Of a stretch of 20,882 nt of DNA, positions 949 through 17,738 are shown in pieces. Below the pieces are notes generated by a model that did no database searches, was not told the DNA's origin, and saw only the letters and a list, made by a program, of their open reading frames with translations. Positions within the stretch are counted from its first letter, which is position 1. Each line of letters begins with the position of its first letter. Location of the stretch: positions 1 to 20,882 of IMG/VR virus record IMGVR_UViG_3300032220_001290; one strand, written 5' to 3'. Both the position numbers and the translations under genes were made by a program. Source of the DNA: a virus.

Positions 949-1135
949 CTACATGCAACGCGTTCGTGAACGTTTCTATAAGCAAGTAAAGGAAACTAAT
1001 TGGGGTGTACCTGAAGAACGAGTATATAGAGCTAGAGGACGTAAAGTAGCACCTAGAGTTATAGCAGAGCAAACACTAAGATCTAGAAAGGAATATAAAC
1101 AAGTACCACAAACTAAATTCTTTAATTTTAACTAA
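938..1135 (+). CDS. Small basic hypothetical protein, 60-65 aa
   Basis: Two starts are possible. ATG 938 overlaps the upstream gene by 11 nt and gives 65 residues. ATG 953 lies 4 nt after the upstream stop and gives 60 residues beginning MQRVRERF. The protein is strongly basic, with many Arg and Lys (for example RVYRARGRKVAPR), which would suit nucleic-acid contact, but there is no recognised domain. It ends one base before the next start. Confidence 0.65.
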   Translation: MEDNYMQRVRERFYKQVKETNWGVPEERVYRARGRKVAPRVIAEQTLRSRKEYKQVPQTKFFNFN

Positions 1136-2206: not shown

Positions 2207-2604
2207 TGTTCATACCAAATCACCTCCACCTATTAGTAAAGGGTTATATTACAAACCCACCAAAATCAGAAGAAATACTAAACCAATGGTTTAGAGAATT
2301 AGTAAATAAAGTCGGAATGGTAGTTGTAGCAGGACCTACCTCAGTATATGTTAATGAACTTGGAAACGAGGGTATAACAGGTACAGTAACATTAGCTACA
2401 TCACACGCCTCAATACACGTTTGGGATGCAATTTATCCTTCAATGTTCCAATTTGACTTATATAGCTGCTCAGATTTTACACCTGAGCAAGTATTAAATC
2501 ACGTCAACGAACACTTCGATCTACAATCAGCAGTATGGCAGTTTATAGATAGAAACAGTATGGAATTTAAGGTGATTGATAGTGGGAAGTGGATGGCGGA
2601 ATAA
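2206..2604 (+). CDS. speD: S-adenosylmethionine decarboxylase-like pyruvoyl enzyme (SpeD family)
   Basis: The 132-residue length and motif order match the short bacterial/archaeal SpeD proenzymes. These split themselves to create a pyruvoyl cofactor and decarboxylate AdoMet for spermidine synthesis. Visible are GITGTVTLATSHASIHVW (56-73), with Ser66 at the pyruvoyl-forming position and His71 where the processing His sits five residues later, and YSCS with Cys88 at the expected catalytic Cys. An early HLHLLVKGY forms the first strand. The usual residue before the cleaved Ser is Glu (ESH); here it is Thr65 (TSH). SpeD-family members are known that decarboxylate ornithine or arginine instead, so the substrate is open. 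T4-like cyanophages are known to carry speD. The start overlaps the nuclease stop by one base, so the two are coupled. Confidence 0.85.
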   Translation: MFIPNHLHLLVKGYITNPPKSEEILNQWFRELVNKVGMVVVAGPTSVYVNELGNEGITGTVTLATSHASIHVWDAIYPSMFQFDLYSCSDFTPEQVLNHVNEHFDLQSAVWQFIDRNSMEFKVIDSGKWMAE

Positions 2605-2618
2605 GGATCGTATATTGA
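2595..2618 (+). promoter_or_regulatory. Putative GGCA-class promoter (variant box GGCG)
   Basis: GGCG at 2595-2598, a 12-base spacer, then TATATTGA at 2611-2618, 26 nt before the ATG at 2637. The box overlaps the end of the upstream gene. It fits the shared GGCA-N12-TAnnTTBA pattern with one box mismatch. Confidence 0.6.
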
Positions 2619-2636
2619 TTCAAATTAAAAATACAT

Positions 2637-2840
2637 ATGGCATTTCAAACTCGAGACGAAGCGCAAGACAAAGTATCTAGGAAATTAGATAGAGTATTAA
2701 ACAAGAAAAAGAAACATGTGCCACTAAGTCAGGAATCGTGGAGTGACCTAAACCAACGAGGTGCTACATTAGTAGAACAAGAACAATGGTTAGTATTAAA
2801 ACGTAAAGCATTAGATCGAGACGCAAATAACAAAGCATAA
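2637..2840 (+). CDS. Small charged hypothetical protein, 67 aa
   Basis: ATG 2637 follows an A-rich leader downstream of a GGCA-class promoter. The protein is hydrophilic and lysine/arginine-rich (NKKKKHV near residue 23, VLKRKALDRD near the end), probably helical, with no membrane or secretion signal. A perfect hairpin follows its stop by three bases, so it may be transcribed alone. Function unknown. Confidence 0.75.
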   Translation: MAFQTRDEAQDKVSRKLDRVLNKKKKHVPLSQESWSDLNQRGATLVEQEQWLVLKRKALDRDANNKA

Positions 2841-2843
2841 TTT

Positions 2844-2860
2844 GAGGGGCATAGCCCCTC
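2844..2860 (+). terminator. Perfect 7-bp GC-rich hairpin, probable terminator overlapping a promoter
   Basis: GAGGGGC at 2844-2850 pairs perfectly with GCCCCTC at 2854-2860 around an ATA loop, just after the stop of the 67-aa gene. The following bases (ACTTATATTT) are only partly T-rich, so termination may be weak. The next gene's promoter box lies inside this hairpin. Confidence 0.6.
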
Positions 2861-2871
2861 ACTTATATTTA
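2848..2871 (+). promoter_or_regulatory. Putative GGCA-class promoter inside a terminator hairpin
   Basis: GGCA at 2848-2851 (stem and loop of the hairpin), a 12-base spacer, then TATATTTA at 2864-2871, 27 nt before the ATG at 2891. An exact match to the shared pattern. Confidence 0.75.
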
Positions 2872-2890
2872 TGTTATAAAATTAAAACGT

Positions 2891-3076
2891 ATGACATCAG
2901 AATTATTAACTAAATGTTTAGAGGTTGAAAACTGGACCCGTTCATTAACAATGAGAGGTATGGATAGAGAAGAGATCGTATATCGAATTGATGAAATGTA
3001 TGTTCCTGAAACATTAGATGAAATGGAAGCGTATAGCGAAGCTATATTATATGCTCGCTTAGGTGTCTTAAATTAG
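2891..3076 (+). CDS. Small acidic hypothetical protein, 61 aa
   Basis: ATG 2891 follows an A-rich leader (TTATAAAATTAAAACGT). The protein is acidic and probably helical (VPETLDEMEAYSEAILYARL), with a single Cys at residue 9 and no membrane segment. It sits alone between two GGCA-class promoters, which suggests its own short transcript. No family recognised. Confidence 0.75.
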   Translation: MTSELLTKCLEVENWTRSLTMRGMDREEIVYRIDEMYVPETLDEMEAYSEAILYARLGVLN

Positions 3077-3085
3077 AGGTGGTCG

Positions 3086-3109
3086 GGCAGAGGGATTAAT
3101 GTAGATTTA
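3086..3109 (+). promoter_or_regulatory. Putative GGCA-class promoter for the DUF932 gene
   Basis: GGCA at 3086-3089, a 12-base spacer, then TAGATTTA at 3102-3109. The ATG is 36 nt after the start of the -10-like element, behind a long A-rich leader. Exact match to the shared pattern. Confidence 0.75.
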
Positions 3110-3137
3110 AGTATTAAATAAAATTAAAATAAAGGTT

Positions 3138-3884
3138 ATGAGTTACAACATTGAAAACATTAGGTCATTAGCACCGTCAGTATTTACAACTGAAAAAGCT
3201 TCACATTTAACGGATAAGTATATCCAAACCCCTACTATCAAAGTAGTAGAAGACCTAATGAACTTAGGTTGGGAAGTAACTAAAGTACAAGAGGTTAAAT
3301 CTCGTAAGTACCAAGGCTTCCAAAAGCATCTAATCATGTTTGCTAATCCAGACATCATGATTAAAGGTCAAAATGGTGATGATGCTCAACCACAAATATT
3401 ACTTACCAATTCACATGATGGTAAGGCAGCATTTAACTTTAGAGTTGGTATCTTTAGATTCGTATGTGAAAACGGATTGGTAATTAGCGATGCTGATTTC
3501 GGTGTAATGTCTATCAGACACGTTAACTACACTTTCGAATCATTACAAGGTAAAGTAAACGAAATGATTACTAAGTTACCTGGGTTAGTAGATAAGATTA
3601 ATACGTTTAAAGCTACAACATTAACTGAACCTCAAATGGTTGAGTTTGCTACTAAAGCGTGTGCTTTAAGATCAAAGCAAACAGTTAATATTATGGATGT
3701 ATTAAATGCTACTCGTCCAGAGGATCAAGGTAATGATTTGTGGGCTGTATTTAACAGAGTACAAGAGAAAGTAGTAAATGGAATGTTTAAAACAGGTACT
3801 CGTAAGGCGAGAGTGATTAAGAACTTCCAACAGGATATTAAAATCAACGAACAATTGTTCGAATTAGCTGAATCATATCTTTAA
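3138..3884 (+). CDS. DUF932 family protein
   Basis: The 248-residue protein looks like DUF932, a family found across phages and plasmids without an established biochemical role. Supporting features are the N-terminal part with TTEKASHLTDKYIQTPT, a middle with LLTNSHDGKAAFNFRVGIFR and FVCENGLVISD (about residues 88-118; the N-S-HDG and R-x-VC-x-NG pattern is typical), and a helical C-terminal half. No signal peptide is present. It has its own GGCA-class promoter with the fullest A-rich leader nearby and a long terminator hairpin after it, which suggests strong single-gene expression. Family call fairly firm; function unknown. Confidence 0.8.
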   Translation: MSYNIENIRSLAPSVFTTEKASHLTDKYIQTPTIKVVEDLMNLGWEVTKVQEVKSRKYQGFQKHLIMFANPDIMIKGQNGDDAQPQILLTNSHDGKAAFNFRVGIFRFVCENGLVISDADFGVMSIRHVNYTFESLQGKVNEMITKLPGLVDKINTFKATTLTEPQMVEFATKACALRSKQTVNIMDVLNATRPEDQGNDLWAVFNRVQEKVVNGMFKTGTRKARVIKNFQQDIKINEQLFELAESYL

Positions 3885-3890
3885 TTTTAA

Positions 3891-3922
3891 GTAAGATTGG
3901 GGGTATAAAGCCCCCAACTTAC
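3891..3922 (+). terminator. Long hairpin terminator after the DUF932 gene
   Basis: GTAAG-A-TTGGGGG (3891-3903) pairs with CCCCCAA-CTTAC (3911-3922): 12 base pairs with one bulged A and a 7-base loop, starting 6 nt after the stop codon. The T-tract after it is poor (ATTTACTACT). TACATTTA at 3920-3927 could be the -10 element for the next gene, but no GGCA box precedes it. Confidence 0.7.
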
Positions 3923-3932
3923 ATTTACTACT

Positions 3933-4229
3933 ATGGAAAATAAAAGCGAAATAAATTTAGGTGGTGGAACTAATATAGTAATGACTACATCTAGATTAGT
4001 CACATGTAATGAAACACTAACATTAATTATTCCAAATGATGGAGCCATTCAATTAGATGTTAAAATACAAGCTGATTTTGATACTATACCTGAAAAGTAT
4101 CATGAAATATTCTTAAATATGCTATCATCTAAATATATGAAAGCAGTATCGTTTGGAGATAATCCATTTAGCCAGTGTCTACCTGCACCTAAGAAACGTT
4201 GGTGGCAATTTTGGAAGGCAAAATTGTAA
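3933..4229 (+). CDS. Hypothetical protein with Trp-rich basic tail, 98 aa
   Basis: ATG 3933 lies 10 nt after the hairpin. The first 70 residues look like a small beta-rich domain (GGGTNIVMTTSRLVTC, LTLIIPNDGAIQLDVKIQA). The last 15 residues are proline, lysine and tryptophan (PAPKKRWWQFWKAKL). Such a WWQFWK tail could contact a membrane surface or an RNA, but this is a guess. No transmembrane helix. Family not recognised. The promoter box of the next gene lies inside its 3' end. Confidence 0.75.
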   Translation: MENKSEINLGGGTNIVMTTSRLVTCNETLTLIIPNDGAIQLDVKIQADFDTIPEKYHEIFLNMLSSKYMKAVSFGDNPFSQCLPAPKKRWWQFWKAKL

Positions 4230-4240
4230 TTGTATCTTCA
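4217..4240 (+). promoter_or_regulatory. Putative GGCA-class promoter, predicted leaderless start
   Basis: GGCA at 4217-4220, a 12-base spacer, then TATCTTCA at 4233-4240. The ATG at 4245 lies exactly 12 nt after the first T of the -10-like element, where transcription would be expected to start. Confidence 0.7.
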
Positions 4241-4244
4241 CTCT

Positions 4245-4667
4245 ATGGAATTAAAAGATAGAATATCAACATTCAGAAAGAATACCTATAACAGATTCTA
4301 CTGGTGGAGACGATTCCAACCACGTGAAACGTTACATAAGTATAAACGTTTGAATGAACGCATCCCAAATGGCGATTTCGAGGTATCAGATTACCACTGG
4401 CAAGTATTATGGGAGAACAAATTAGAGAAACAATCCATATCTGAAGAATGTAGTGTAGATAAACAGCACGAAATCAGATGTATGTTTGGAGAGCGTAGAC
4501 GTAGATTAAATAACGATTACGAGAAGGACGAACAGAAAATATTAGACGAAATGTATAAGGCATTTAGAGTGGAATTAAGAATGAGTAAAGAAGAAGTAGA
4601 AGATGAAATGCTTAATTTCGATGGTACATTGTCTGAATTCTATCATTATATTTATAACAAAAGATAA
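4245..4667 (+). CDS. Charged hypothetical protein, 140 aa
   Basis: I take ATG 4245 as the start. An upstream TTG at 4230 in the same frame would place the start before the promoter's -10 element. The protein is strongly charged, with Arg/Trp-rich stretches (FYWWRRFQPR near residue 20, FGERRRRLNNDYEKDEQK near residue 85) and an acidic helical C-terminal part, probably mostly alpha-helical. No signal, membrane helix or known domain. It appears to start an operon with the next two or three genes, which follow at 3-17 nt. Confidence 0.75.
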   Translation: MELKDRISTFRKNTYNRFYWWRRFQPRETLHKYKRLNERIPNGDFEVSDYHWQVLWENKLEKQSISEECSVDKQHEIRCMFGERRRRLNNDYEKDEQKILDEMYKAFRVELRMSKEEVEDEMLNFDGTLSEFYHYIYNKR

Positions 4668-4670
4668 CAA

Positions 4671-4871
4671 ATGGAAATTAAAGACATTCTTAGTGAATTA
4701 ATTACAGTGGCTACAGCTACATTAAATGAACGTGGTTGTCCTGAAAACTTCGATTTAGAAGATTTCATCAATGCAATAGAAGATTACTATGAAGAATTAG
4801 ATGAAATTGGAGAGTTCACTTATTTAGATGATAAAGACGAATACGACTTCAGTGATGAAGGCGAATATTAA
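4671..4871 (+). CDS. Very acidic small protein, 66 aa
   Basis: ATG 4671 is 3 nt after the previous stop. About a third of the residues are Asp or Glu, concentrated in the second half (EDYYEELDEIGEF, DDKDEYDFSDEGEY). Such acidic phage proteins are sometimes DNA mimics that bind host DNA-binding proteins. Here that is only a possibility from composition. No domain recognised. Confidence 0.75.
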   Translation: MEIKDILSELITVATATLNERGCPENFDLEDFINAIEDYYEELDEIGEFTYLDDKDEYDFSDEGEY

Positions 4872-4888
4872 TTATTAAAATAAAAGTT

Positions 4889-5140
4889 ATGTCAACAAAA
4901 AATTGGGATCGCGTCTTAACAGACGAACAAATCAGTTCAATTCATGATCAATTAGTAGTATTGTTTAGAGATGATGCTGAGGTATTAGCTGAAATGGTAC
5001 TAAACAATTACTTAGCCGAAGATAAAAATATGTTATGGGCTAATATGGTTGAATTGATTGAGCAAGCCGAAAAAGGTGAGTTATTATCAATTGATCAGAT
5101 CAACATGATCTTAAAAGAAGATACTAATGCTAATTGTTAA
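4889..5140 (+). CDS. Small acidic hypothetical protein, 83 aa
   Basis: ATG 4889 follows an A-rich leader (AAAATAAAAGTT). A degenerate promoter-like match (GGCG at 4860-4863, 12 bases, TAAAATAA) precedes it. The protein is acidic and probably all-helical (DEQISSIHDQLVVLF, AEVLAEMVLNNYLAE, MVELIEQAEKGEL). No membrane segment. It overlaps the next small gene by 14 nt. Function unknown. Confidence 0.75.
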   Translation: MSTKNWDRVLTDEQISSIHDQLVVLFRDDAEVLAEMVLNNYLAEDKNMLWANMVELIEQAEKGELLSIDQINMILKEDTNANC

Positions 5141-5297
5141 AATATTAACATCATTATCAGTAATATTCTTCATAACACTATTTATAGGTGAAACAATGGC
5201 TATTAAAAATAAGTATCCTAAATTCACTAAGTGGTGGAGAGAAAATTGGATTGGCACTGAAGATAAATTAGATTCACGTAAACAAAATAAAAAATAA
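5127..5297 (+). CDS. Short one-helix membrane protein, 56 aa
   Basis: This short gene starts at ATG 5127, overlapping the previous gene by 14 nt, and ends at TAA 5295-5297. Residues 3-20 (IVKILTSLSVIFFITLFI) form one hydrophobic helix, followed by GETMAIKNKYPKFTKWWREN and a charged tail. The F-x-KWWR motif next to a membrane anchor resembles small proteins I recall from other Bacteroidetes phages, without known function. The alternative start at the internal Met24 would drop the helix. The promoter of the next gene lies within its 3' end. Confidence 0.65.
   Translation: MLIVKILTSLSVIFFITLFIGETMAIKNKYPKFTKWWRENWIGTEDKLDSRKQNKK
5253..5276 (+). promoter_or_regulatory. Putative GGCA-class promoter inside the 56-aa gene
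   Basis: GGCA at 5253-5256, a 12-base spacer, then TAGATTCA at 5269-5276, within the coding end of the 56-aa gene. The ATG at 5302 is 33 nt after the -10-like element. Exact match to the shared pattern. Confidence 0.7.
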
Positions 5298-5301
5298 AGT
5301 T

Positions 5302-5568
5302 ATGGCAAAAGCAGTAAAAACAACAACAGAAAAAGCATTTATGCTTACTCAAGATCAATTTGACGTATTAGTTGAAGTAAGATCATTCCTAGACAGCGCA
5401 TCAGACACATTAGGTGATATTGATGGCGATGGTAATTTACTTGAAATTGGTAGATCAGTAGGTAACGCTACAAGCGACGTTATCAATGCATTCAACCAAT
5501 TAGGTGATTTAGTTGATGCAATTAATCCTAATGCTGATGATAATGATTGGGAATTTGATATTAAATAG
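5302..5568 (+). CDS. Small acidic hypothetical protein, 88 aa
   Basis: ATG 5302 follows an A-rich leader (AAAAAATAAAGTT). After a Lys/Thr-rich start (AKAVKTTTEKAF), the protein is acidic, with helices around VLVEVRSFLDSASDTL and VINAFNQLGDLVDAI. DIDGDGNLL at 39-47 looks like the front half of an EF-hand loop, but position 12 of the loop is Gly rather than Glu/Asp, so I do not call calcium binding. A perfect 10-bp hairpin follows, and the gene has its own promoter, so it may be a single-gene transcript. Confidence 0.75.
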   Translation: MAKAVKTTTEKAFMLTQDQFDVLVEVRSFLDSASDTLGDIDGDGNLLEIGRSVGNATSDVINAFNQLGDLVDAINPNADDNDWEFDIK

Positions 5569-5589
5569 TATTTAAGGTTAGTAAATTTG

Positions 5590-5613
5590 GATAGGCACCG
5601 CAAGGTGTCTATC
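5590..5613 (+). terminator. Perfect 10-bp hairpin with GCAA tetraloop, terminator fused to a promoter
   Basis: GATAGGCACC (5590-5599) pairs with GGTGTCTATC (5604-5613), with one G-T wobble, around a GCAA loop of the stable GNRA type. TTTATG follows. The hairpin contains the GGCA box of the next promoter in its left arm and half of its -10-like element in its right arm. Confidence 0.75.
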
Positions 5614-5617
5614 TTTA
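5594..5617 (+). promoter_or_regulatory. Putative GGCA-class promoter within a terminator hairpin, predicted leaderless start
   Basis: GGCA at 5594-5597, a 12-base spacer, then TATCTTTA at 5610-5617. The ATG at 5622 lies exactly 12 nt after the first T of the -10-like element, so the transcript may begin at the AUG. Exact match to the shared pattern. Confidence 0.75.
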
Positions 5618-5621
5618 TGTC

Positions 5622-6173
5622 ATGACAAATTTAGTAATACACCCCACAGATCGCAGTACGGATTTTCTAAAACCGATATATGCGAACATAACCGATGCAA
5701 CCATTATTAATGGTGGTGTTAGTAAAGCACAAATCGCTAAACTAATAAGCGAACACGACCGAATCATAATGATGGGACATGGCTCACCATCAGGTTTATT
5801 TAGCTGTGCTAAGTTCGGGGATAATGATTATAGTGGGTTTGTAATTGACTCTACAATGGTACCACTACTATACGAGAAAGAATGTATTGCTATATGGTGT
5901 AATGCAGATAAATTCATGAATCAACATGAATTAAATGGATTTTACAGCGGTATGTTTATTAGTGAGGTAGGCGAAGCAACATATTGTGGATTACCAGGTA
6001 TGGAACAAGAAACAGTAACAGCATCAAACGATTACTTCGCTGAACTATTAGGTGAAGTGATTAATGAGCCATTAAGCGTTATATATGAGCATATTATGGA
6101 TAATTATGGATTACTAACCGAAGATAATCCCGTCGCTAACTACAATCATAATAGATTGTACTTGGCAGAATAA
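5622..6173 (+). CDS. Caspase-like (clan CD) cysteine peptidase candidate
   Basis: The 183-residue protein shows the two diagnostic blocks of clan CD peptidases (caspases, gingipains, legumain, CHAT). One is a hydrophobic strand ending in His-Gly (RIIMMGHG, His53-Gly54). The other is a second hydrophobic strand ending in Cys (CIAIWCNAD, Cys93). The 40-residue spacing is close to that in caspases and legumain. An N-terminal strand (NLVIHPTD) and the helix before the His strand also fit the fold. There is no signal peptide, so it would act in the cytoplasm. Its target is unknown. Weak points are that the residue before Cys93 is Trp rather than the common Ala or Gln, and that no prodomain or partner was found nearby. 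It is expressed from its own promoter, apparently on a leaderless transcript. Confidence 0.6.
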   Translation: MTNLVIHPTDRSTDFLKPIYANITDATIINGGVSKAQIAKLISEHDRIIMMGHGSPSGLFSCAKFGDNDYSGFVIDSTMVPLLYEKECIAIWCNADKFMNQHELNGFYSGMFISEVGEATYCGLPGMEQETVTASNDYFAELLGEVINEPLSVIYEHIMDNYGLLTEDNPVANYNHNRLYLAE

Positions 6174-6187
6174 CAGTTGTATATTGA
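6164..6187 (+). promoter_or_regulatory. Putative GGCA-class promoter
   Basis: GGCA at 6164-6167 (inside the end of the previous gene), a 12-base spacer, then TATATTGA at 6180-6187, followed by CGGTATAAAATTAAAA shared almost exactly with three later sites. The ATG at 6207 is 27 nt after the -10-like element. Confidence 0.8.
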
Positions 6188-6206
6188 CGGTATAAAATTA
6201 AAAAAT

Positions 6207-6521
6207 ATGAAATTAACATTACAAGAATTAAACGAAATCTATTACTGCTTAGGTAAAGTATTAACATTAAACGAAGTTAATCTCGCTAACATTAGCTTAG
6301 TAGAACAAATTAGAGATAAGGTACGTGACGAGATAGATATAATAGAATACAAAAACGAAAGCAACGAAGACGATGGACCAGAATATGACAGTGCTGGTTT
6401 CACTGAAGATGACAGAATAGTAAACGGACAGTATAGAGTAATAAGTAACGACGATGCAGATGAAGACTATAAAGCATCATTAATCCAAGACGAACAACGT
6501 TACGAAAATCAACATAAATAA
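6207..6521 (+). CDS. Acidic hypothetical protein, 104 aa
   Basis: The frame is open upstream to a TTG at 6177, but that codon precedes the promoter's -10-like element, so ATG 6207 behind the A-rich leader is chosen. The N-terminal half is helical (LTLQELNEIYYCLGKVL, SLVEQIRDKVRDEIDII). The C-terminal half is very acidic and probably disordered (NESNEDDGPEYD, SNDDADEDY). No recognised domain. It is followed 7 nt later by an exported-protein gene. Confidence 0.75.
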   Translation: MKLTLQELNEIYYCLGKVLTLNEVNLANISLVEQIRDKVRDEIDIIEYKNESNEDDGPEYDSAGFTEDDRIVNGQYRVISNDDADEDYKASLIQDEQRYENQHK

Positions 6522-6528
6522 TTTAAAA

Positions 6529-6939
6529 TTGAATATAAATTTAATTATATCATCAGCCCTATTACTACTGCCTTGTAAAATACAACAAGAGGAATTAAGA
6601 ATAAACTACCTAATTCCAACACTTAAACCAGAGCAAGTAACAGTAACCACTTACACCCCATCAGTAGAGGAATGTGATAGTACACCACATATCACAGCTA
6701 GCGGATTTAAAATAGACACATTAAATCCTAAGCGACACAGGATAATAGCGGTAAGTAGAGACCTAAAACGTAAATGGAAATTTGGAACTAAGATTAGAAT
6801 AACAGGTATGGGTAAACATAACGGCACATACATAGTTAAGGATGTAATGAATAAACGTTATAAAAAGCGCATTGATATACTCGTGGGTAAGCAAGACAAG
6901 CAGTTTAAATTCACGGGAATTAAAATATATAAAATATGA
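6529..6939 (+). CDS. Exported 3D-domain (double-psi barrel) protein, possible lipoprotein
   Basis: No ATG exists before the conserved region. A TTG at 6529 after an A-rich leader (AATTTAAAA) gives a hydrophobic N-terminus (MNINLIISSALLLLPC), and Cys16 could be a lipoprotein anchor. Residues 37-125 resemble the 3D/RlpA-like barrel: VTTYTPS near 38, TASG at 56-59, a VSRDL strand, KIRITGMGKHNGTYIVKD with Asp105, and RIDILV with Asp116. Proteins with this domain act on or bind peptidoglycan, for example the MltA and RlpA relatives. A cell-wall role in the periplasm or at the membrane is likely. The domain call is moderately firm. The unusual TTG start and the lipobox (LLPC, lacking the usual small residue before Cys) are uncertain. 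Confidence 0.65.
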   Translation: MNINLIISSALLLLPCKIQQEELRINYLIPTLKPEQVTVTTYTPSVEECDSTPHITASGFKIDTLNPKRHRIIAVSRDLKRKWKFGTKIRITGMGKHNGTYIVKDVMNKRYKKRIDILVGKQDKQFKFTGIKIYKI

Positions 6940-7196
6940 AAACATTCAACGATTTAGAATTTAAACAAGACATACAACGAGGATTAAACGCAGCTCGAAT
7001 CATGTTCGATAATGGATACGGAGCGAGTGTAGTAATAGGACCATACACATATGGTGGTGAAAATGGCTTATATGAATTAGGTGTATTAGGTAAAGATGGT
7101 AAATTATGCTATGATACGCCTGTAACGGGCGATGTTGAAGGATATCTAAGTGAAGATGACGTGACTAGATTATTAGAACAAATACAGAACTTATAA
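6936..7196 (+). CDS. Small hypothetical protein, 86 aa
   Basis: The start overlaps the previous stop as ATGA (6936-6939), so translation is probably coupled. An N-terminal helix (LEFKQDIQRGLNAARIMFD) is followed by a Gly/Tyr-rich beta segment (GASVVIGPYTYGGENGLYEL) and an acidic end. It looks like a compact globular cytosolic protein. No known family recognised. Confidence 0.75.
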   Translation: MKTFNDLEFKQDIQRGLNAARIMFDNGYGASVVIGPYTYGGENGLYELGVLGKDGKLCYDTPVTGDVEGYLSEDDVTRLLEQIQNL

Positions 7197-7269
7197 ATAG
7201 CACCCTAAAATTCAGCTTAAGCTTTATGGCTCACACACCACATATATAAATACGTATATACGATTAGCT

Positions 7270-7389
7270 ATGATAATTTACATGATAGAAACAATAACAC
7301 TAATAGCGAACAACAATCCACAATTTAAAATAACAACGCCTACACGAGTAGGCGAAACAGATAAAGGAAAATATTTAATATATGAATGA
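7270..7389 (+). CDS. Short hypothetical peptide gene, 35-39 aa
   Basis: A short frame starts at ATG 7270 (or in-frame ATG 7282) and ends at TGA 7387-7389, overlapping the next start (7382) by 8 nt. The product (ETITLIANNNPQFKITTPTR, then VGETDKGKYLIYE) reads like protein, and the overlap resembles neighbouring gene junctions. Its small size and lack of a clear promoter keep confidence low. The rest of the 185-bp gap upstream holds only AT-rich sequence with one TATAAATA. Confidence 0.45.
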   Translation: MIIYMIETITLIANNNPQFKITTPTRVGETDKGKYLIYE

Positions 7390-7795
7390 TATAAATAAAC
7401 AATTCGAAATGATAAACAAAATATTGGATCGAATCGATGCTAAACAGAAAGAAATTAATGGAAAGTTAGACGAAGTAATTGCAGCGTTACACGCTTATGA
7501 TGACGAGAATATTGAAGATATAAATGAAGGGTATGGCGAATCATCATTTGAAGCGTTCCAAGACACCAAAAACGACATATTGAGTTGGGACGTAGATGGA
7601 GCAGAACGTCGAACACACCACGTAACGAACGAGGAAGCGGATGGTGATGCTAATAAAATACGTGTGAGTAAGGATAGTAATAATACTCAGGATAAACACG
7701 TGGGTAAGAAGAAACGTGATAAATGGGTTAGTCCATACCCACCGAATCCGAAACGTAAATTCACACAAGATTTAATACCTAAAAACAAAGGATAG
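7382..7795 (+). CDS. Hypothetical protein with N-terminal coiled coil, 137 aa
   Basis: Residues 1-40 (NKQFEMINKILDRIDAKQKE, then INGKLDEVIAALHAY) show the heptad spacing of a coiled coil, suggesting oligomerisation. The middle is acidic and polar. The last 35 residues are basic and Pro-rich (GKKKRDKWVSPYPPNPKRK), probably a flexible tail that could bind nucleic acid. No enzyme motif. It abuts the next gene (TAG then ATG directly). Confidence 0.75.
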   Translation: MNDINKQFEMINKILDRIDAKQKEINGKLDEVIAALHAYDDENIEDINEGYGESSFEAFQDTKNDILSWDVDGAERRTHHVTNEEADGDANKIRVSKDSNNTQDKHVGKKKRDKWVSPYPPNPKRKFTQDLIPKNKG

Positions 7796-8014
7796 ATGAG
7801 CGACTTTAGTAAACAATGGTGCAACGTAAACGACCCTGATATGCCGTATGATTTCGATATATTGGAGGTGTTTAGTAAATTGAAATACAACACATATGAG
7901 AGCTGGATATGTGAGGGATATGGCTTTGGGGCTGTAGCTAATATAGACGGCGAGTGTATGTTGAATATGCCTAATGGAAAATGGGTACCCTACGATGATG
8001 TAGTCAACAAGTAA
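7796..8014 (+). CDS. Small hypothetical protein, 72 aa
   Basis: ATG 7796 directly follows the previous stop codon. The protein is rich in Asp, Trp, Tyr and Phe, with three Cys at 9, 39 and 54 (QWCNVN, WICEGYG, GECMLN). The pattern does not match a standard zinc motif. It may be a small beta domain (GFGAVANIDGECMLNMPNGK). It ends the gene run before a terminator-like hairpin and the long non-coding gap. Confidence 0.75.
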   Translation: MSDFSKQWCNVNDPDMPYDFDILEVFSKLKYNTYESWICEGYGFGAVANIDGECMLNMPNGKWVPYDDVVNK

Positions 8015-8036
8015 CGCGTTTTTTTCGCCGTTAAAT

Positions 8037-8057
8037 GCGCATTACGTGCGTTTTTTT
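8037..8057 (+). terminator. Short hairpin followed by seven T
   Basis: CGCA (8038-8041) pairs with TGCG (8047-8050) around TTACG, extendable by one G-T pair, and is followed immediately by TTTTTTT (8051-8057). The stem is short but the T-run is good, and it sits about 25 nt after the stop at 8014. Confidence 0.5.
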
Positions 8058-8097
8058 GTTTAAACGACATCACTTTTTTTTATCACAACGTGTGTAT

Positions 8098-8309
8098 AAC
8101 TACACAACGTAGGACAACTACGAATATTAGTAATATATTACTACGCGATTTAGGATGGTAGTATGTGACCTGTTGTTGTTGTATGTGGGTGGTGGTGTTG
8201 TGTTCCATCCCGCCTTCATTCCGCGCATCCACACTTTTTTATATACACATTTTTTTTTACTACACCACTTAGTTGTTTACTACACGCTTTAGTACTACTA
8301 AATGTAGTA
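8098..8309 (+). repeat. Array of six imperfect 17-bp motifs, WACTAC-N6-TAGKW
   Basis: Copies start at 8098, 8116, 8139, 8258, 8278 and 8293. Read as 17-mers, all share ACTAC at positions 2-6 and TAG at 13-15: for example AACTACACAACGTAGGA, TACTACGCGATTTAGGA and TACTACACGCTTTAGTA. They form two clusters of three, separated by about 100 bp. Each copy has partial two-fold symmetry (CTA...TAG), as expected for a dimeric DNA-binding protein. The last copy is nearly a full palindrome and forms the stem of the hairpin at 8293-8309. Confidence 0.65.
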
Positions 8310-8314
8310 TTTTT
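8293..8314 (+). terminator. Hairpin with T-run, overlaps the last motif copy
   Basis: TACTAC (8293-8298) pairs perfectly with GTAGTA (8304-8309) around TAAAT, followed by TTTTTG. It could terminate transcription before the AT-hook gene's promoter. Because it coincides with an array copy, it may instead be primarily a protein-binding palindrome. Confidence 0.4.
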
Positions 8315-8334
8315 GTGTTACAATGTTTTGTTGT

Positions 8335-8358
8335 GGCAAAGTTTTTTTCATAGATTTA
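8335..8358 (+). promoter_or_regulatory. Putative GGCA-class promoter for the four-AT-hook gene
   Basis: GGCA at 8335-8338, a 12-base spacer containing seven T, then TAGATTTA at 8351-8358. The ATG at 8378 is 27 nt after the -10-like element. Exact match to the shared pattern. Confidence 0.75.
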
Positions 8359-8377
8359 CGTCATAATAATTAAAGAT

Positions 8378-9022
8378 ATGAAAGTAATAGAAAAAGATTT
8401 TGTCGTCGGTGGAGCAAAGCTCGGCACATACAACGCATACGAAGATATTGAACCTGAATTGTTACGTTTCCGTCCTGGACAACGTGTACTCCCAGCACCT
8501 TTTTTTTATGAAACGGGTGATACATACACACTAATTGCTCAACACGAGCCCGGTACAAAGTTTTATCCAAACGGTGGTTTTGAGGTGCGTGATAGTGGGG
8601 GTGGTTCTCGTCACTATGATTTGGATCAAGTTATTGTGCATCCAGCATCATGTAAACACCAACCAACATTAGATTTGATGACGCGACGTGAGGAACGTGA
8701 GGCGGCAGCCGCCGAACGAGCTGTTTTGCGCGGTGATAAGGTGAAGGTTAAGGTTGAGGGTGCGCGTAGAGGACGTCCAGCTATTGATCCAGCTGTTAAG
8801 GCAGCCCGTGAAGCGGAGAAGGTTTTACGCACCCAACGCTCAGGCGGTAAAAGAGGCCGTCCATCTTCTGGTGAGCCCAAGACCCAGACGGTAAAAGCCA
8901 CTAGTGGTAAACGCGGGCGACCAGCTTTGTCCACAACCCAGATTGCAGCTGCAACCGCAGCTAAAGCAGCTACTAGATCACGCTCTGGTGGACGCAGAGG
9001 TAGACCTAAATCATCGCGTTAG
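8378..9022 (+). CDS. DNA-binding protein with four AT-hooks, 214 aa
   Basis: The N-terminal 95 residues form a small unknown domain (VGGAKLGTYNAYEDIEPELL, GDTYTLIAQHEPGTKFY, DLDQVIVHPASCKH). The rest is Ala/Arg/Lys-rich with four AT-hook cores RGRP at 131-134, 159-162, 179-182 and 207-210, each preceded by basic residues. AT-hooks insert the RGR core into the minor groove of AT-rich DNA, so this should bind the phage's own AT-rich DNA, possibly as an organiser or regulator. It lies directly downstream of the T-tract-rich gap. Its base composition is visibly more GC-rich than neighbours, as Ala/Arg/Gly codons require. The AT-hook call is firm; the target sites are unknown. Confidence 0.88.
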   Translation: MKVIEKDFVVGGAKLGTYNAYEDIEPELLRFRPGQRVLPAPFFYETGDTYTLIAQHEPGTKFYPNGGFEVRDSGGGSRHYDLDQVIVHPASCKHQPTLDLMTRREEREAAAAERAVLRGDKVKVKVEGARRGRPAIDPAVKAAREAEKVLRTQRSGGKRGRPSSGEPKTQTVKATSGKRGRPALSTTQIAAATAAKAATRSRSGGRRGRPKSSR

Positions 9023-9032
9023 TTTTTGTTCG

Positions 9033-9056
9033 GTCGAGGTTTTTTATGTAGATTGA
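9033..9056 (+). promoter_or_regulatory. Degenerate GGCA-class promoter (box GTCG)
   Basis: GTCG at 9033-9036, a 12-base spacer, then TAGATTGA at 9049-9056. The ATG at 9081 is 32 nt after the -10-like element. The -10-like part is exact; the box matches two of four bases. Confidence 0.5.
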
Positions 9057-9080
9057 TGTTATAATTAAAATTAATAAGTT

Positions 9081-9293
9081 ATGAAAGTAGAATTGTTTAT
9101 TACTAAGGACAGAGTTCCTTACATCGTTGGAGAATTAGGTGTAGATAGAGTTACTGTATCAGAGTATGATGATACTCAAGACACAGTTAGTTTTGAGCTA
9201 ACCGGTCAGCTAGATTTGTTATACCTGTTCCACGCTGGAATAAGATGTGGATCAGATAATATGGCTAAAGCGTTAACTAGCAAGGTTGTTTAG
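9081..9293 (+). CDS. Small hypothetical protein, 70 aa
   Basis: ATG 9081 follows the leader TTAATAAGTT. The first 45 residues look like alternating beta strands (KVELFITKDRVPYIVGELG, TVSFELTGQLDLLYL), then a short helix with one Cys (GIRCGSDNMAKAL). A compact cytosolic fold is likely. Its stop codon TAG contributes the first G of the next promoter box. No family recognised. Confidence 0.75.
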   Translation: MKVELFITKDRVPYIVGELGVDRVTVSEYDDTQDTVSFELTGQLDLLYLFHAGIRCGSDNMAKALTSKVV

Positions 9294-9316
9294 GCAAGGT
9301 TTTGTTCCGATCTTCA
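9293..9316 (+). promoter_or_regulatory. Putative GGCA-class promoter (variant -10 GATCTTCA)
   Basis: GGCA at 9293-9296, starting in the upstream stop codon, a 12-base spacer, then GATCTTCA at 9309-9316 and CGTTATAAAATTAAAA. The ATG at 9336 is 27 nt after the -10-like element. The box is exact; the -10-like part has GA instead of TA. Confidence 0.65.
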
Positions 9317-9335
9317 CGTTATAAAATTAAAAAAT

Positions 9336-9533
9336 ATGAATGTAAATGAATTAAAGCCTAATCAAATGATTTATGGCAACAAAGGTAATGTTTGGACTAA
9401 CACAGCTCACATTTTTGAGTCTGGAAAAGGCAATTTGTGTGGTACACCTGCTCTAGCTACAAATTGGGCTCGCATTGAGGGAGTGGAAGTGATTGGTTGT
9501 CCAGCTTGTCTGGCTAAAGCGAATACCAATTAA
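9336..9533 (+). CDS. Small Cys/His protein, probable zinc-binding, 65 aa
   Basis: The protein has His25, Cys35, and a CPAC knuckle at 55-58 (Cys55, Cys58). This H-x9-C-x19-CxxC spacing resembles small zinc-binding phage proteins carrying an H...CG...C-x2-C signature. Four ligands for one zinc ion are therefore available. No catalytic motif is present. It sits between the two AT-hook genes, each with its own promoter. Zinc binding is inferred from spacing only. Confidence 0.75.
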   Translation: MNVNELKPNQMIYGNKGNVWTNTAHIFESGKGNLCGTPALATNWARIEGVEVIGCPACLAKANTN

Positions 9534-9541
9534 TTTTTTTG

Positions 9542-9565
9542 GTCAACGTTTTGTTCCGAAATTTA
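9542..9565 (+). promoter_or_regulatory. Degenerate GGCA-class promoter (GTCA box)
   Basis: GTCA at 9542-9545, a 12-base spacer, then GAAATTTA at 9558-9565. The spacer end (TTTTGTTCC) is identical to that of the site at 9293. The ATG at 9602 is 44 nt away behind a long A-run. Confidence 0.45.
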
Positions 9566-9601
9566 GTATATAATAATTAAAATAAAAAAAAAATCAAGGT
9601 T

Positions 9602-9838
9602 ATGTCAAAAGAAAACAAATCAACAAAGAGAGGTCGTCCAACAGTAAGTACATCAGCACGTCAAGCACGTCTGGAAGCTAGAGCAGCACGCGTTGCGTCT
9701 GGTGGATCGATCGGTAGAGGTCGTCCAGCGAGTGAGGGATCAGCACGTCAAGCTAAATTAGCTATACGCGCAGCTAAGATCGCGTCTGGTGGAACGATCA
9801 AGCGTGGTAGACCAGCTAAGGCTGAGGTAGCCGCATAA
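9602..9838 (+). CDS. Small three-AT-hook protein with internal duplication, 78 aa
   Basis: Almost the whole protein is AT-hook repeat. RGRP cores lie at 10-13, 39-42 and 68-71, exactly 29 residues apart, joined by Ala/Arg helices (SARQARLEARAARVASGGS and SARQAKLAIRAAKIASGGT). The perfect spacing would place three minor-groove contacts on one DNA face or bridge several sites. It is likely an abundant small DNA-coating protein or silencer-like regulator for AT-rich DNA. A strong terminator follows. The DNA-binding assignment is firm; the role is inferred. Confidence 0.88.
   Translation: MSKENKSTKRGRPTVSTSARQARLEARAARVASGGSIGRGRPASEGSARQAKLAIRAAKIASGGTIKRGRPAKAEVAA
9652..9825 (+). repeat. Tandem duplication of an 87-bp unit within the AT-hook gene
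   Basis: Units 9652-9738 and 9739-9825 begin with the same bases (ATCAGCACGTCAAGC) and share further blocks such as GCGTCTGGTGGA. Each encodes one 29-residue linker plus AT-hook. The two copies have diverged at many third positions, so the duplication is not recent. Confidence 0.7.
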
Positions 9839-9842
9839 TTTT

Positions 9843-9886
9843 TGAACGACGGGGTCTGTAGTAGATCCCGTCTGTTCATTTTTTTA
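9843..9886 (+). terminator. Strong intrinsic terminator after the small AT-hook gene
   Basis: TGAACGACGGG (9843-9853) pairs with CCCGTC-T-GTTCA (9867-9878), with one bulged T. The stem extends inward by a G-T pair and then TCT/AGA around a GTAGT loop. Seven T follow directly (ATTTTTTTATC). This is the best-formed terminator in the first half of the window. Confidence 0.85.
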
Positions 9887-9905
9887 TCATTATTAAATTT
9901 TTTAT

Positions 9906-10103
9906 ATGAACATTATTATTAATTTTTTATTGACGTTTTTATTTGGTGTACGAGTAGAAGGTGAGCCGATCAATCTAGAGTACGGTACTCGGGTCCCTTG
10001 CTCCACTAGTGACCCAGACGATCGTCCAGAGCAATTTACCTGGTTCACTGAATTTAGAGTGAGTTGTTTACATGGTAAACAAAATGTTTATTTGGAGGGC
10101 TAA
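9906..10103 (+). CDS. Small exported or membrane-anchored hypothetical protein, 65 aa
   Basis: ATG 9906 follows the strong terminator by about 20 nt of AT-rich DNA, so a promoter must lie in that gap, but no GGCA box is there. Residues 2-15 (NIIINFLLTFLFGV) form a hydrophobic segment that could be a signal or anchor. The rest is polar, with Cys32 and Cys54 possibly disulfide-bonded. Function unknown. Confidence 0.65.
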   Translation: MNIIINFLLTFLFGVRVEGEPINLEYGTRVPCSTSDPDDRPEQFTWFTEFRVSCLHGKQNVYLEG

Positions 10104-10122
10104 ATATTATTACTTATCTTCA
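10098..10122 (+). promoter_or_regulatory. Degenerate GGCA-class promoter (GGCT, 13-base spacer)
   Basis: GGCT at 10098-10101, a 13-base spacer, then TATCTTCA at 10115-10122. The ATG at 10153 is 38 nt after the -10-like element. The -10-like part is exact, but the box and spacing each deviate by one. Confidence 0.45.
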
Positions 10123-10152
10123 CAGTATTAAATTAAAATTAAATTAAAAGTT

Positions 10153-10536
10153 ATGGCTACAAGATCATTAATCGGAGTTAAGTTGAACGACAACATAGTG
10201 AAAACAATTTATTGCCACTGGGATGGTTACCCAGAGCACAACGGGAAGTTGCTAGTGGAAAACTACAGCACGCCCGCAGCAATAACGGAGCTAATGTTAC
10301 TGGGTGATTTAAGTAACCTAGATCTAACACCAGACAAGTGTAAAGCGTATCACCGCGATCGAAACGAACCGTGGGGTATGGTTGAACCCAGAGACACAAG
10401 CGCCAGTGAGCTGGTGAGTGTGGGGAATGAGTACGGTGTGGATTACGTGTACGTGTATAATGAGAATTACGAATGGGACTGTTTTAAAAGTGACGGTACC
10501 CCAGTAGATATATTGAGCAATATCGCTCTAAATTAG
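10153..10536 (+). CDS. Widespread conserved phage protein of unknown function (MATRSxIG family), 127 aa
   Basis: The N-terminus MATRSLIGVKLNDNIVKTIY, followed by CHWDGYPEHNGKLL and LLGDLSNL, is a pattern I recall from many phage and plasmid hypothetical proteins. The conserved H-W-D-G-Y-P and RDRNEPWG (near residue 69) blocks suggest a shared active or binding site, and the C-terminal strand (YVYVYNENYEWDCF) closes a small alpha/beta domain. No experimental function is known to me. It has its own degenerate GGCA-class promoter. Confidence 0.85.
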   Translation: MATRSLIGVKLNDNIVKTIYCHWDGYPEHNGKLLVENYSTPAAITELMLLGDLSNLDLTPDKCKAYHRDRNEPWGMVEPRDTSASELVSVGNEYGVDYVYVYNENYEWDCFKSDGTPVDILSNIALN

Positions 10537-10561
10537 GTTCATACTTTTAATTTTTAATGGT

Positions 10562-10603
10562 GAGCGAGCTGGGTTTCTACCCGGCTCAATTGCTGTCTGG
10601 GCT
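10562..10603 (+). other. GC-rich hairpin region of unknown role
   Basis: In the 111-bp gap after the MATRS gene, GAGCTGGGT (10566-10574) pairs with ACCCGGCTC (10579-10587), 9 bp with one G-T pair and a TTCT loop. TGAGC at 10561-10565 offers an alternative pairing with the same right arm. No T-run follows, so it is a weak terminator candidate, and it does not fold as a tRNA. It could be a small RNA or transcript-end stabiliser. Confidence 0.45.
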
Positions 10604-10627
10604 GGCACAGTACCAGTCATATATTCA
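10604..10627 (+). promoter_or_regulatory. Putative GGCA-class promoter
   Basis: GGCA at 10604-10607, a 12-base spacer, then TATATTCA at 10620-10627 and CGGTATAAAAATT. The ATG at 10648 is 28 nt after the -10-like element. Exact match. Confidence 0.8.
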
Positions 10628-10647
10628 CGGTATAAAAATTAAATAAT

Positions 10648-10938
10648 ATGAACAAGAAAGAAATTAAAAGCGCAATTAATAAAGCCGCTTACGCGTTTGC
10701 TGAGTCAATGGGATATGAAGTACACGATGACGAGGGTGATGGTACCGTATCATTCGTCCCACACGAGTACACAACCATAGACGATACGATCACTTGGCAT
10801 CGCAGCTCACATGATACGTGTGTGTTGAATTGGTCCAGTGATAAGACCAAAGCGGACGCTGATACGATCGATGCACACATGAAACCAATAATCGAACAAT
10901 ATAATAATCAATATACACCGAAACATGTTATGGCATAG
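10648..10938 (+). CDS. Small hypothetical protein, 96 aa
   Basis: ATG 10648 follows an A-rich leader. A helix (KKEIKSAINKAAYAFAESMG) is followed by an acidic turn (VHDDEGDG), then beta strands with several His residues (VPHEYTTIDDTITWHRSSHD) and a C-terminal helix. The fold looks compact and cytosolic. No family recognised. The promoter box of the next gene lies inside its last codons (ATGGCATAG). Confidence 0.75.
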   Translation: MNKKEIKSAINKAAYAFAESMGYEVHDDEGDGTVSFVPHEYTTIDDTITWHRSSHDTCVLNWSSDKTKADADTIDAHMKPIIEQYNNQYTPKHVMA

Positions 10939-10955
10939 TTCGGTTCGTATATTCA
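10932..10955 (+). promoter_or_regulatory. Putative GGCA-class promoter
   Basis: GGCA at 10932-10935, within the last codons of the upstream gene, a 12-base spacer, then TATATTCA at 10948-10955 and CGGTATAAAAATA. The ATG at 10976 is 28 nt after the -10-like element. Exact match. Confidence 0.8.
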
Positions 10956-10975
10956 CGGTATAAAAATAATAAGAT

Positions 10976-11224
10976 ATGAACATTAAAACAAAACAAGGAT
11001 TAGCATTATTAGATGCAATGTTAGCTGATAGTACTTACAGTAAACATTATGATGTATTTAGTAAGGTATTTAAAGGTGTAGATATAGATTCAATTAATCA
11101 TCTTATATCAACTGAAATTAACGGTGAAGAAGTAATAGATGAATACGATGAATTGCTTAGTGATAAACAATTTATAAAGCAATTAAATACAATTCAGAAT
11201 AATATTAATAATGTATTTAACTAG
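10976..11224 (+). CDS. Small helical hypothetical protein, 82 aa
   Basis: The protein is predicted mostly helical from its pattern (KQGLALLDAMLADSTYSKHY, DELLSDKQFIKQLNTIQNNI) and has no Cys, Trp or membrane segment. Transcribed from its own promoter; its TAG stop supplies the first G of the next GGCA box. Function unknown. Confidence 0.75.
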   Translation: MNIKTKQGLALLDAMLADSTYSKHYDVFSKVFKGVDIDSINHLISTEINGEEVIDEYDELLSDKQFIKQLNTIQNNINNVFN

Positions 11225-11247
11225 GCAGAACATAAATCATATATTCA
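11224..11247 (+). promoter_or_regulatory. Putative GGCA-class promoter
   Basis: GGCA at 11224-11227, starting in the upstream stop codon, a 12-base spacer, then TATATTCA at 11240-11247 and CGGTATAAAATTAAAA. The ATG at 11265 is 25 nt after the -10-like element. Exact match. Confidence 0.8.
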
Positions 11248-11264: not shown

Positions 11265-11426
11265 ATGAGCAAATTAACATTTACAGACGGTCAAACATTC
11301 GATTTAAGTGGTCCACTACGTTTGGAAGAACGTTACGATGGATGGTATGTACTGGGAAATAACAGAATGATACCCGTGGCTAGTCAAGACGCAGGTAATA
11401 TATTGATAACACAATTAAACAATTAA
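11265..11426 (+). CDS. Short hypothetical protein, 53 aa
   Basis: ATG 11265 lies right behind the A-rich leader of an exact GGCA-class promoter, and the frame ends at TAA 11424-11426, three bases before the next ATG. The product (MSKLTFTDGQTFDLSGPLRL, then EERYDGWYVLGNNRMIP) looks like a small all-beta domain. Promoter placement and operon spacing make it a real gene despite its length. No family recognised. Confidence 0.75.
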   Translation: MSKLTFTDGQTFDLSGPLRLEERYDGWYVLGNNRMIPVASQDAGNILITQLNN

Positions 11427-11942: not shown

Positions 11943-12128
11943 ATGAATATAAAATACATTGAAGGATCGATGATGCTAACGAAAGAAGCATTCGAACAAT
12001 ATATTCAACAACAACGTAACACAGAAGCCACACAATATGGCTTGACGATGGAAGAATACCAACACGCTATAATGAGTGGAAGTGTTGTCCAGGCAAAATC
12101 CCCATCGGATATTCCACCTAAACAATAG
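11943..12128 (+). CDS. Small hypothetical protein, 52-61 aa
   Basis: ATG 11943 gives 61 residues; the internal MM at 11970/11973 gives 51-52 residues beginning MLTKEAFEQYIQ. The protein is Gln/Glu-rich and helical, with a Pro-rich end (SPSDIPPKQ). It ends 3 nt before the T5orf172 gene, so the two are probably co-transcribed. Function unknown. Confidence 0.65.
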   Translation: MNIKYIEGSMMLTKEAFEQYIQQQRNTEATQYGLTMEEYQHAIMSGSVVQAKSPSDIPPKQ

Positions 12129-13517: not shown

Positions 13518-13584
13518 AGAATAGGAAAAACGCCGAAGGGTTGGGGAACGAAAAGAACCATATATTTATATATAAACATATACT

Positions 13585-17725: not shown

Positions 17726-17738
17726 AATATTTATAATT

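Follow-up and report, generated by a model that had tools for sequence, protein, structure and literature searches.

A clade of uncultured T4-like viruses, whose hosts are probably Bacteroidota, carries a short DNA box at a fixed distance upstream of a −10 element at many of its genes. We propose that box and −10 element together form a phage-specific class of promoters in which the −10 element is opened by the host RNA polymerase and the box is read by a phage factor in place of the −35 element, a reading that we regard as reasonably probable. The DNA analysed here (the window, 20,882 nucleotides) is positions 1 to 20,882 of IMGVR_UViG_3300032220_001290 and represents part of the genome of a T4-like phage that is uncultured; Flavobacterium phage Immuto is a relative, and no cultured member of the box clade is known. 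In relatives the consensus is GGCARRRY-N8-TAnnTTYA, with the box at −28 to −21 and the core at −12 to −5. Several features of the sequence support the view that the sites are promoters: the geometry of the −10 element is fixed, a leaderless class has a distance of exactly 12 nt, and the sites keep to the plus strand and lie upstream of genes.

The promoter element in the window

The first-pass annotation of this DNA had reported ten exact matches to GGCA-N12-TAnnTTBA, and all of them are present: the window holds 10 such sites on the plus strand and 0 on the minus strand, whereas dinucleotide shuffles of the window give 0.21 expected sites and at most 1 in any shuffle, which excludes chance. 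The 12-base spacer is indeed constant, since a scan of spacers 5 to 24 returns 10 matches at 12, at most 1 at any other length and 3 at all other lengths together. The exact sites also lie just upstream of genes, with the first T of TAnnTT 12–36 nt before an ATG. The upstream element itself proved longer than the GGCA first described, extending to GGCARRRY at −28 to −21.

When the window was scored with a weight matrix trained on other phages only, the twelve best scores (16.6–33.1) were the ten exact sites together with 9293 and 2595, and the best minus-strand score was 5.0. The sites are as follows, with distances counted from position −12 to the ATG.

2848..2871, plus strand: exact box promoter, GGCATAGC N8 TATATTTA, score 29.7, 27 nt to ATG 2891; box within the hairpin GGGGC-ATA-GCCCC
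3086..3109, plus strand: exact box promoter of the DUF932 gene, 36 nt to ATG 3138
4217..4240, plus strand: exact box promoter, leaderless class, T(−12) exactly 12 nt to ATG 4245
5253..5276, plus strand: exact box promoter, score 16.6, 33 nt to ATG 5302
5594..5617, plus strand: exact box promoter, leaderless class, exactly 12 nt to ATG 5622; GNRA-like hairpin GGCACC-GCAA-GGTGTC
6164..6187, plus strand: exact box promoter, score 28.9, 27 nt to ATG 6207
8335..8358, plus strand: exact box promoter of an AT-hook-like protein, score 33.1 (the top score of the window), 27 nt to ATG 8378
10604..10627, plus strand: exact box promoter, score 30.6, 28 nt to ATG 10648
10932..10955, plus strand: exact box promoter, score 33.0, 28 nt to ATG 10976
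11224..11247, plus strand: exact box promoter, score 29.6, 25 nt to ATG 11265
9293..9316, plus strand: box promoter with G at −12, GGCAAGGT N8 GATCTTCA, score 27.5, 27 nt to ATG 9336
2595..2618, plus strand: box promoter with GGCG, score 19.1, 26 nt to ATG 2637 (candidate regulator gene)
11383..11406, plus strand: added site, GTCAAGAC N8 TATATTGA, score 13.6, 31 nt to ATG 11430
6890..6913, plus strand: added site, AGCAAGAC N8 TAAATTCA, score 13.1, 30 nt to ATG 6936
12092..12115, plus strand: probable added site, GGCAAAAT N8 GATATTCC, score 14.2, 24 nt to ATG 12132
9033..9056, plus strand: weak site, GTCGAGGT N8 TAGATTGA, score 8.9, before ATG 9081

Among the five degenerate sites proposed earlier, 9293 and 2595 are retained and 9033 weakly so. 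The other two, 9542 (score 4.2) and 10098 (score 4.6, with a true spacer of 13), fall below the best minus-strand score and are not supported. The three added sites were absent from the earlier list.

Conservation and geometry across the clade

We compared 50 loci, 39 of the box clade and 11 distant. The box was found in 39 of 39 loci of the window's clade and in 0 of the 11 distant loci, a sharp divide between phages with and without it. Across the 50 loci the spacer is 12 at 288 sites, 11 at 25 and 13 at 3, with none on the minus strand; a GTCA variant with spacer 12 is also enriched in the relatives (89 on the plus strand, 3 on the minus strand). Ten box genomes and the window together hold 247 plus-strand sites, 192 of which lie 12–60 nt before a gene, and 7 minus-strand sites. 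Genomes of the clade carry about ten to forty copies of the promoter.

The −10 element is close to the Bacteroidetes TAnnTTTG, as noted in the first pass: nnTT follows GGCARRRY-N8-TA in 97–98% of 360 distinct sites, but at −5 box sites have A in 93% and G in 1%. The distance from the first T of the −10 element to the ATG is either exactly 12 nt (24 sites) or more than 20 (about 21–50), and only 4 sites fall at 13–20. As the flavobacterial sigma-A box has been mapped to −12 to −5 (PMC9723704), a −10 element exactly 12 nt before the ATG would place +1 on the ATG itself.

A probable substitute for the −35 element

Sites with spacer 12 and spacer 11 differ in what stands at −35. TTG is found there at 30 of 280 spacer-12 sites (~11%) versus 24 of 29 spacer-11 sites (83%; p=3e-16), and, counted by gene family, in 7 of 117 versus 9 of 11; both comparisons are made within one clade, and shared ancestry inflates the site counts and, to a lesser degree, those by gene family. 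TTG is thus mostly gone at spacer-12 sites and retained at spacer-11 sites, which supports the view, drawn from sequence, that the box substitutes for most of what a −35 element does. The earlier proposal that GGCA had replaced the −33 TTTG is supported in that the box takes over, with the qualification that TTG is weakened rather than simply absent. The contrast between the two spacers amounts to a natural experiment on a box in place of a −35 element. Few promoters without the box are seen in box genomes, which counts against a phage-encoded reader, as its first molecules would need a source; the spacer-11 class, with its intact −35, may be that source.

What reads the box?

Since the box, at its fixed distance, apparently takes the part of the −35 element, the clade probably retunes the host RNA polymerase with a factor of its own. 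The host enzyme would open the promoter at TAnnTTYA (−12 to −5), and GGCARRRY at −28 to −21, held at its fixed distance, would do most of the work of a −35 element; a phage-encoded factor would bind the box DNA and contact the polymerase. Small phage genes and a few replication genes would in this way be turned on jointly, ahead of the late genes that use ATATTTATA. The protein nature of the reader, its coding by the phage, its activating role, the use of the host's polymerase and the timing are all inferred. A phage-encoded reader appears most likely because the box is not enriched in Bacteroidota genomes and because late genes carry a different motif. The first pass had left the choice between an activator and an altered sigma; an activator is now the leading explanation, as the box is phage-specific and takes over from the −35. 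The sigma-like gene of the phage fits poorly as reader.

14111..14881, plus strand: sigma-like gene, probable T4 gp55-type late factor, weak sigma matches only
13562..13570, plus strand: late-type motif ATATTTATA, before ATG 13585
17727..17735, plus strand: late-type motif ATATTTATA, before ATG 17739

It is unlikely, though the best of the alternatives, that these are alternative-sigma promoters, with −10 element and box both recognised by this sigma or by a further phage sigma that has gone unnoticed. Such a gene is present in the phage, and the A at −5 is not the host's G and recurs both in Immuto and in the late motif. However, the gene also occurs in boxless relatives, with its C-terminal HTH-like stretch (T227, P228, T231) conserved in both groups, and if a sigma had to read the box, an intact −35 TTG would not be expected at spacer-11 promoters. 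The predicted fold of the protein (pLDDT 69) gave weak sigma-factor matches only, and a comparison with PDB sequences gave no match. A gp55-type factor is better fitted by ATATTTATA, which is common to boxed and boxless clades, and on this ground the late sigma was rejected as box reader. Late genes use ATATTTATA, mostly without the core, and box promoters serve other genes; counted over the window by itself, the motif does not exceed chance (4 occurrences versus 2.3 expected). Box promoters also differ from T4 gp55-type late promoters, which are −10-only and stand before late genes.

Slightly less likely still, the box is read by a host regulator or by the primary sigma of the clade's particular hosts, with a host switch behind the clade boundary. 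A reader supplied by the host would be there before any phage protein is made, and the sharp boundary would fit as well. Against it, the box pattern is not enriched in 118 Bacteroidota genomes, a sample that may omit the true host genus (125 matches versus 137 reversed controls), and a host origin of the box was set aside for lack of such enrichment. Four MAGs with related phage contigs reach at most ~2x control with a loose pattern, and SZAS-14 has 1 match versus 2 controls with the strict pattern. Nor is any of the six promoter motifs of F. psychrophilum described as a GGCA box in the main text of PMC9723704.

We consider it improbable that the box is a repressor operator within the spacer of ordinary sigma-A promoters. 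A place between −35 and −10 is typical of repressor sites, but the −35 should then persist; it is mostly gone at spacer-12 sites and retained in Immuto (T, T and G at 81, 77 and 77%), and the box is not palindromic. An RNA or terminator hairpin of the upstream transcript that precedes a −10 by chance, as the short hairpins around the 2848 and 5594 boxes might suggest, is largely refuted and most improbable, for a perfect hairpin accompanies 7 of 116 sites only, and the bases and their spacing stay fixed at every site.

Returning to a phage-encoded activator, we note two small basic proteins that track the box.

2637..2840, plus strand: family B, 67-aa basic protein, three helices predicted; best candidate for the reader or its partner
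938..1135, plus strand: family A, 65-aa basic protein with an RGRK motif; secondary candidate

Family B is present in 38 of 38 box loci and in 1 of 85 others, and this exception is itself the end of a box-clade contig; the protein may be the reader, or a mere marker of the clade. Its AlphaFold2 model has pLDDT 77, and no PDB match below E 6 was found for the fold. Family A occurs in 36 of 38 box loci and 1 of 85 others. An HTH protein (78 aa, G006:208-444) agreed with the 14 genomes compared first, G023 and its variant element among them, and was dropped because it is also carried by boxless contigs with TTG-N20 promoters (those behind L270/L372, L271, L272 and L344). The AT-hook protein (8378-9022) was rejected as well, being found in 21 of 38 box loci and in boxless genomes. 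As to the MotA-like protein that the first pass had suggested looking for, a sequence-profile search with the MotA C-terminal domain MotCF (PF09158) gave no match at E<=1 in any of 8 records of related phages.

Relation to known promoters and to other lineages

Our literature search found no promoters of this kind for flavophages or Immuto. To our knowledge, little has been described of how Bacteroidota phages take over transcription besides the virion RNA polymerase of crAss-like phages. The closest parallel, also drawn in the first pass, is with the middle promoters of T4, where a T4-like phage likewise uses a short phage-specific box for the −35, a host-like −10 and tight spacing to serve non-late genes. 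The box itself differs: the MotA box, wwwTGCTTtA, has its centre at −30 and stands 12 +/- 1 bp from the −10 (PMC2988021), whereas GGCARRRY, being 8 bp long, leaves a gap of 8 bp. The absence of a MotCF match and the spacer-11 subclass with a full −35 are further differences. Flavobacterial primary-sigma promoters (TAnnTTTG at −12 to −5, TTG near −33) share the position and approximate sequence of the −10, A-rich leaders and a leaderless minority; they differ in the base at −5, in keeping TTG and in lacking the added box.

Immuto and other boxless phages have TTG-N20-TAnnTTTA promoters (9 of the 11 distant loci; the other 2 have another element). These share the core −10, the leaderless class and the place before orthologous genes, but are box-free and retain the −35 TTG at a rigid 20-bp spacer. 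In a third lineage (G023, L220 and L348), TAGGCTTACARARY promoters again combine a fixed upstream element at many promoters with an unchanged core. They contain CARARY, one base pair away from the CARRRY of the box, and differ in their other flanking bases, in GG at −33/−32 and in lacking both the GGCA box and family B. At the DUF932 gene the promoter has the box in most box-clade genomes, GGCTTACA in G023 and TTG-N20 in Immuto and G024. Tentatively, and at somewhat less than even odds in our judgement, the Immuto-like T4 group has evolved its own sigma appropriation, unrelated to MotA/AsiA, in which the upstream element (TTG-N20, TAGGCTTACARARY, GGCARRRY) was swapped more than once across dozens of promoters per genome, jointly with its reader. 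The clade, a large environmental one, shows a rewired promoter network, genes and −10 being constant under three upstream elements in three lineages. The analysis yields exact mutants, start-site predictions and a few candidate readers, and possibly an orthogonal promoter/activator pair for Bacteroidota genetics.

Finally, sigma-54 promoters also have a GGCA-like upstream element, but with GG at −24 and GC at −12; here GGCA lies at −28 to −25 and TA at −12/−11.

Box promoters and their geometry

What defines the box promoters of this T4-like phage, and how are they read? The first-pass annotation reported ten exact GGCA-N12-TAnnTTBA sites in this 20,882-base window, and each is present where it had been placed, always on the plus strand; dinucleotide shuffles of the window predict 0.21, and none of them gave more than one. 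The constant 12-base spacer claimed for them also holds: across spacers of 5 to 24, ten matches fall at 12 and three at all the others combined. When 106 sites from other phages, and none from the window, were used to train a weight matrix, its top twelve scores in the window went to the ten exact sites, 9293 and 2595, the weakest exact site scoring 16.6 and the best minus-strand position 5.0. Of the five degenerate sites also proposed, the matrix thus recovers 9293 and 2595 and lends weak support to 9033 but none to 9542 or 10098; it adds three overlooked sites at 12092, 11383 and 6890.

The consensus of 116 aligned sites reads GGCA at −28 to −25, R/A R/A R Y at −24 to −21, TCG at −15 to −13 and TATATTYA at −12 to −5, with A at +1 in 78% and then an A-rich leader. 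Among 360 distinct GGCARRRY-N8-TA sequences, collected without demanding the rest of the −10 element, TT occupies −8/−7 in 97–98%, in keeping with the suggested likeness to the Bacteroidetes −10; the likeness fails at −5, where the host TAnnTTTG has G and the box promoters have A (93%; G, 1%).

Their placement marks the sites as promoters. In ten box genomes and the window, 192 of 247 plus-strand sites lie 12–60 nt upstream of a gene start, and only seven sites occupy the opposite strand. The first T of the −10 is exactly 12 nt from the ATG at 24 sites and otherwise more than 20 nt away, save four sites at 13–20. In Flavobacterium psychrophilum, where 5.5% of mRNAs lack a leader, the sigma-A box maps to −12 to −5 (PMC9723704); by this mapping, the 12-nt distance would make the A of the ATG position +1. 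The genes served by these promoters are short (median product, 87 aa) and include a few orthologues of DNA primase, DNA polymerase A and ssDNA-binding genes, a set resembling the T4 middle genes.

Lineage restriction

The box occurs in 39 of 39 loci whose DUF932 protein shares 70% identity or more with that of the window, and in none of 11 sharing 53% or less. In 75 further loci of the boxless group there is no box excess, and TTG-N20-TAnnTTNA occurs 519 times on the plus strand versus 86 on the minus; the same rigid TTG-N20 is found in Flavobacterium phage Immuto and the related genome G005. A third element, TAGGCTTACARARY-N7-8-TATATTTA, is present at L217 (genome G023) and L220, both among the 11 distant loci, as well as on contig L348, with about 15 such promoters in G023 (L316–L323) and about 15 in L220. 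The DUF932 promoter itself varies by lineage: nearly every box genome has the box there, G023 has the GGCTTACA-type, and Immuto and G024 have TTG-N20. At 72850, 74380 and 75401 of genome G018 and 45684 of G021, variant boxes, GTCAGAAA or GCCAGAAA, sit in perfect GAAA-loop hairpins (GGTGGTCA-GAAA-TGATCACC) abutting the −10.

Trade-off with the −35 element

Across 50 DUF932 loci, 288 box sites have spacer 12, 25 have 11 and three have 13, with none on the minus strand at these spacers. A −35 TTG accompanies 30 of 280 spacer-12 sites (7 of 117 gene families) and 24 of 29 spacer-11 sites (9 of 11 families); Fisher's test on sites gives p = 3e-16, a value inflated by shared ancestry, and the family count agrees. 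A correctly spaced box therefore relieves selection on the −35, and the pattern indicates that the box is a substitute for that element. The box could instead be a repressor operator, but the loss of the −35 at correctly spaced sites counts against this; the trade-off argues for an activating role.

Proposed mechanism and candidate readers

Considering the sequence, geometry, strand and location of the box promoters, their clade restriction, the −35 trade-off and the lack of host enrichment (125 matches in 118 Bacteroidota genomes versus 137 for reversed-pattern controls), we propose that a phage-encoded protein would bind the box and touch the polymerase, replacing the contact of sigma region 4 with the −35, and that host polymerase with its own primary sigma would open the DNA at TAnnTTYA. 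Expression would precede that of the late genes. The parallel drawn earlier with T4 middle promoters survives as a mode of action, a phage box taking the place of the −35; box sequence and spacing differ (PMC2988021), and MotA, present in T4, is not detectable here, so the box promoters do not qualify as members of that class. Within the literature searched, no phage box replacing the −35 has been described for this phage group or host phylum.

Two window genes bear on the reader:

2637–2840, plus strand: family B protein, 67 aa, basic, three predicted helices
14111–14881: sigma-like gene, weak sigma matches

Each of 38 boxed loci carries family B, which elsewhere turns up only at one contig end of the same clade; it may be just a clade marker. 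The sigma-like gene, a sigma by weak matches, occurs in boxed and boxless phages, as does the late-gene motif ATATTTATA, and is thus better assigned to late transcription. A helix-turn-helix protein at first tracked the box, yet is present in boxless phages. A MotA-like protein, which the first-pass annotation proposed to look for, drew no match when the MotA C-terminal domain was searched for in related phages. Separately, two window proteins (8378–9022 and 9602–9838) carry repeated RGRP AT-hook-like motifs, and the phage promoters are AT-rich.

ATATTTATA accompanies the late genes of every genome compared. It lies about 25–30 nt upstream of structural genes, both in phages with the box and in those without (window copies at 13562 and 17727), and is strictly directional (for example, 32 plus versus one minus in genome G006); it includes TATTTATA, the reverse complement of the T4 late box TATAAATA.

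Phage identity, host and other features

The window, an IMG/VR fragment in its entirety, encodes contractile-tail phage genes, including T4 gp25-like and baseplate wedge proteins, with DUF932 and T5orf172. Its nearest cultured relative is Immuto (46% identity in the sigma-like protein, 44% in a baseplate protein, common gene order), and one contig with the box, L156, belongs to a MAG that carries the label Bacteroidetes; a Bacteroidota host is therefore probable. Phage Mel-JY01 (PP395634.1), whose listed host is the cyanobacterium Microcystis, has the baseplate and sigma-like genes of the Immuto-like group, and its host label may be worth checking.

After the small-gene cluster lies a GC-rich conserved non-coding element (window 11650–11790; G006 61167–61503) in which GATAGCGG-like repeats recur at intervals of about 11 bp and TGCTCCCAYGNTAATYGCGGTCCATCGACGG follows. 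Found in 10 of 10 box genomes compared and none of four boxless ones, and without a match in Rfam, it may be an origin of replication or have a regulatory role. The small-gene region also encodes a secreted-looking DNA/RNA non-specific endonuclease (1577–2206; PF01223, E 2e-41).
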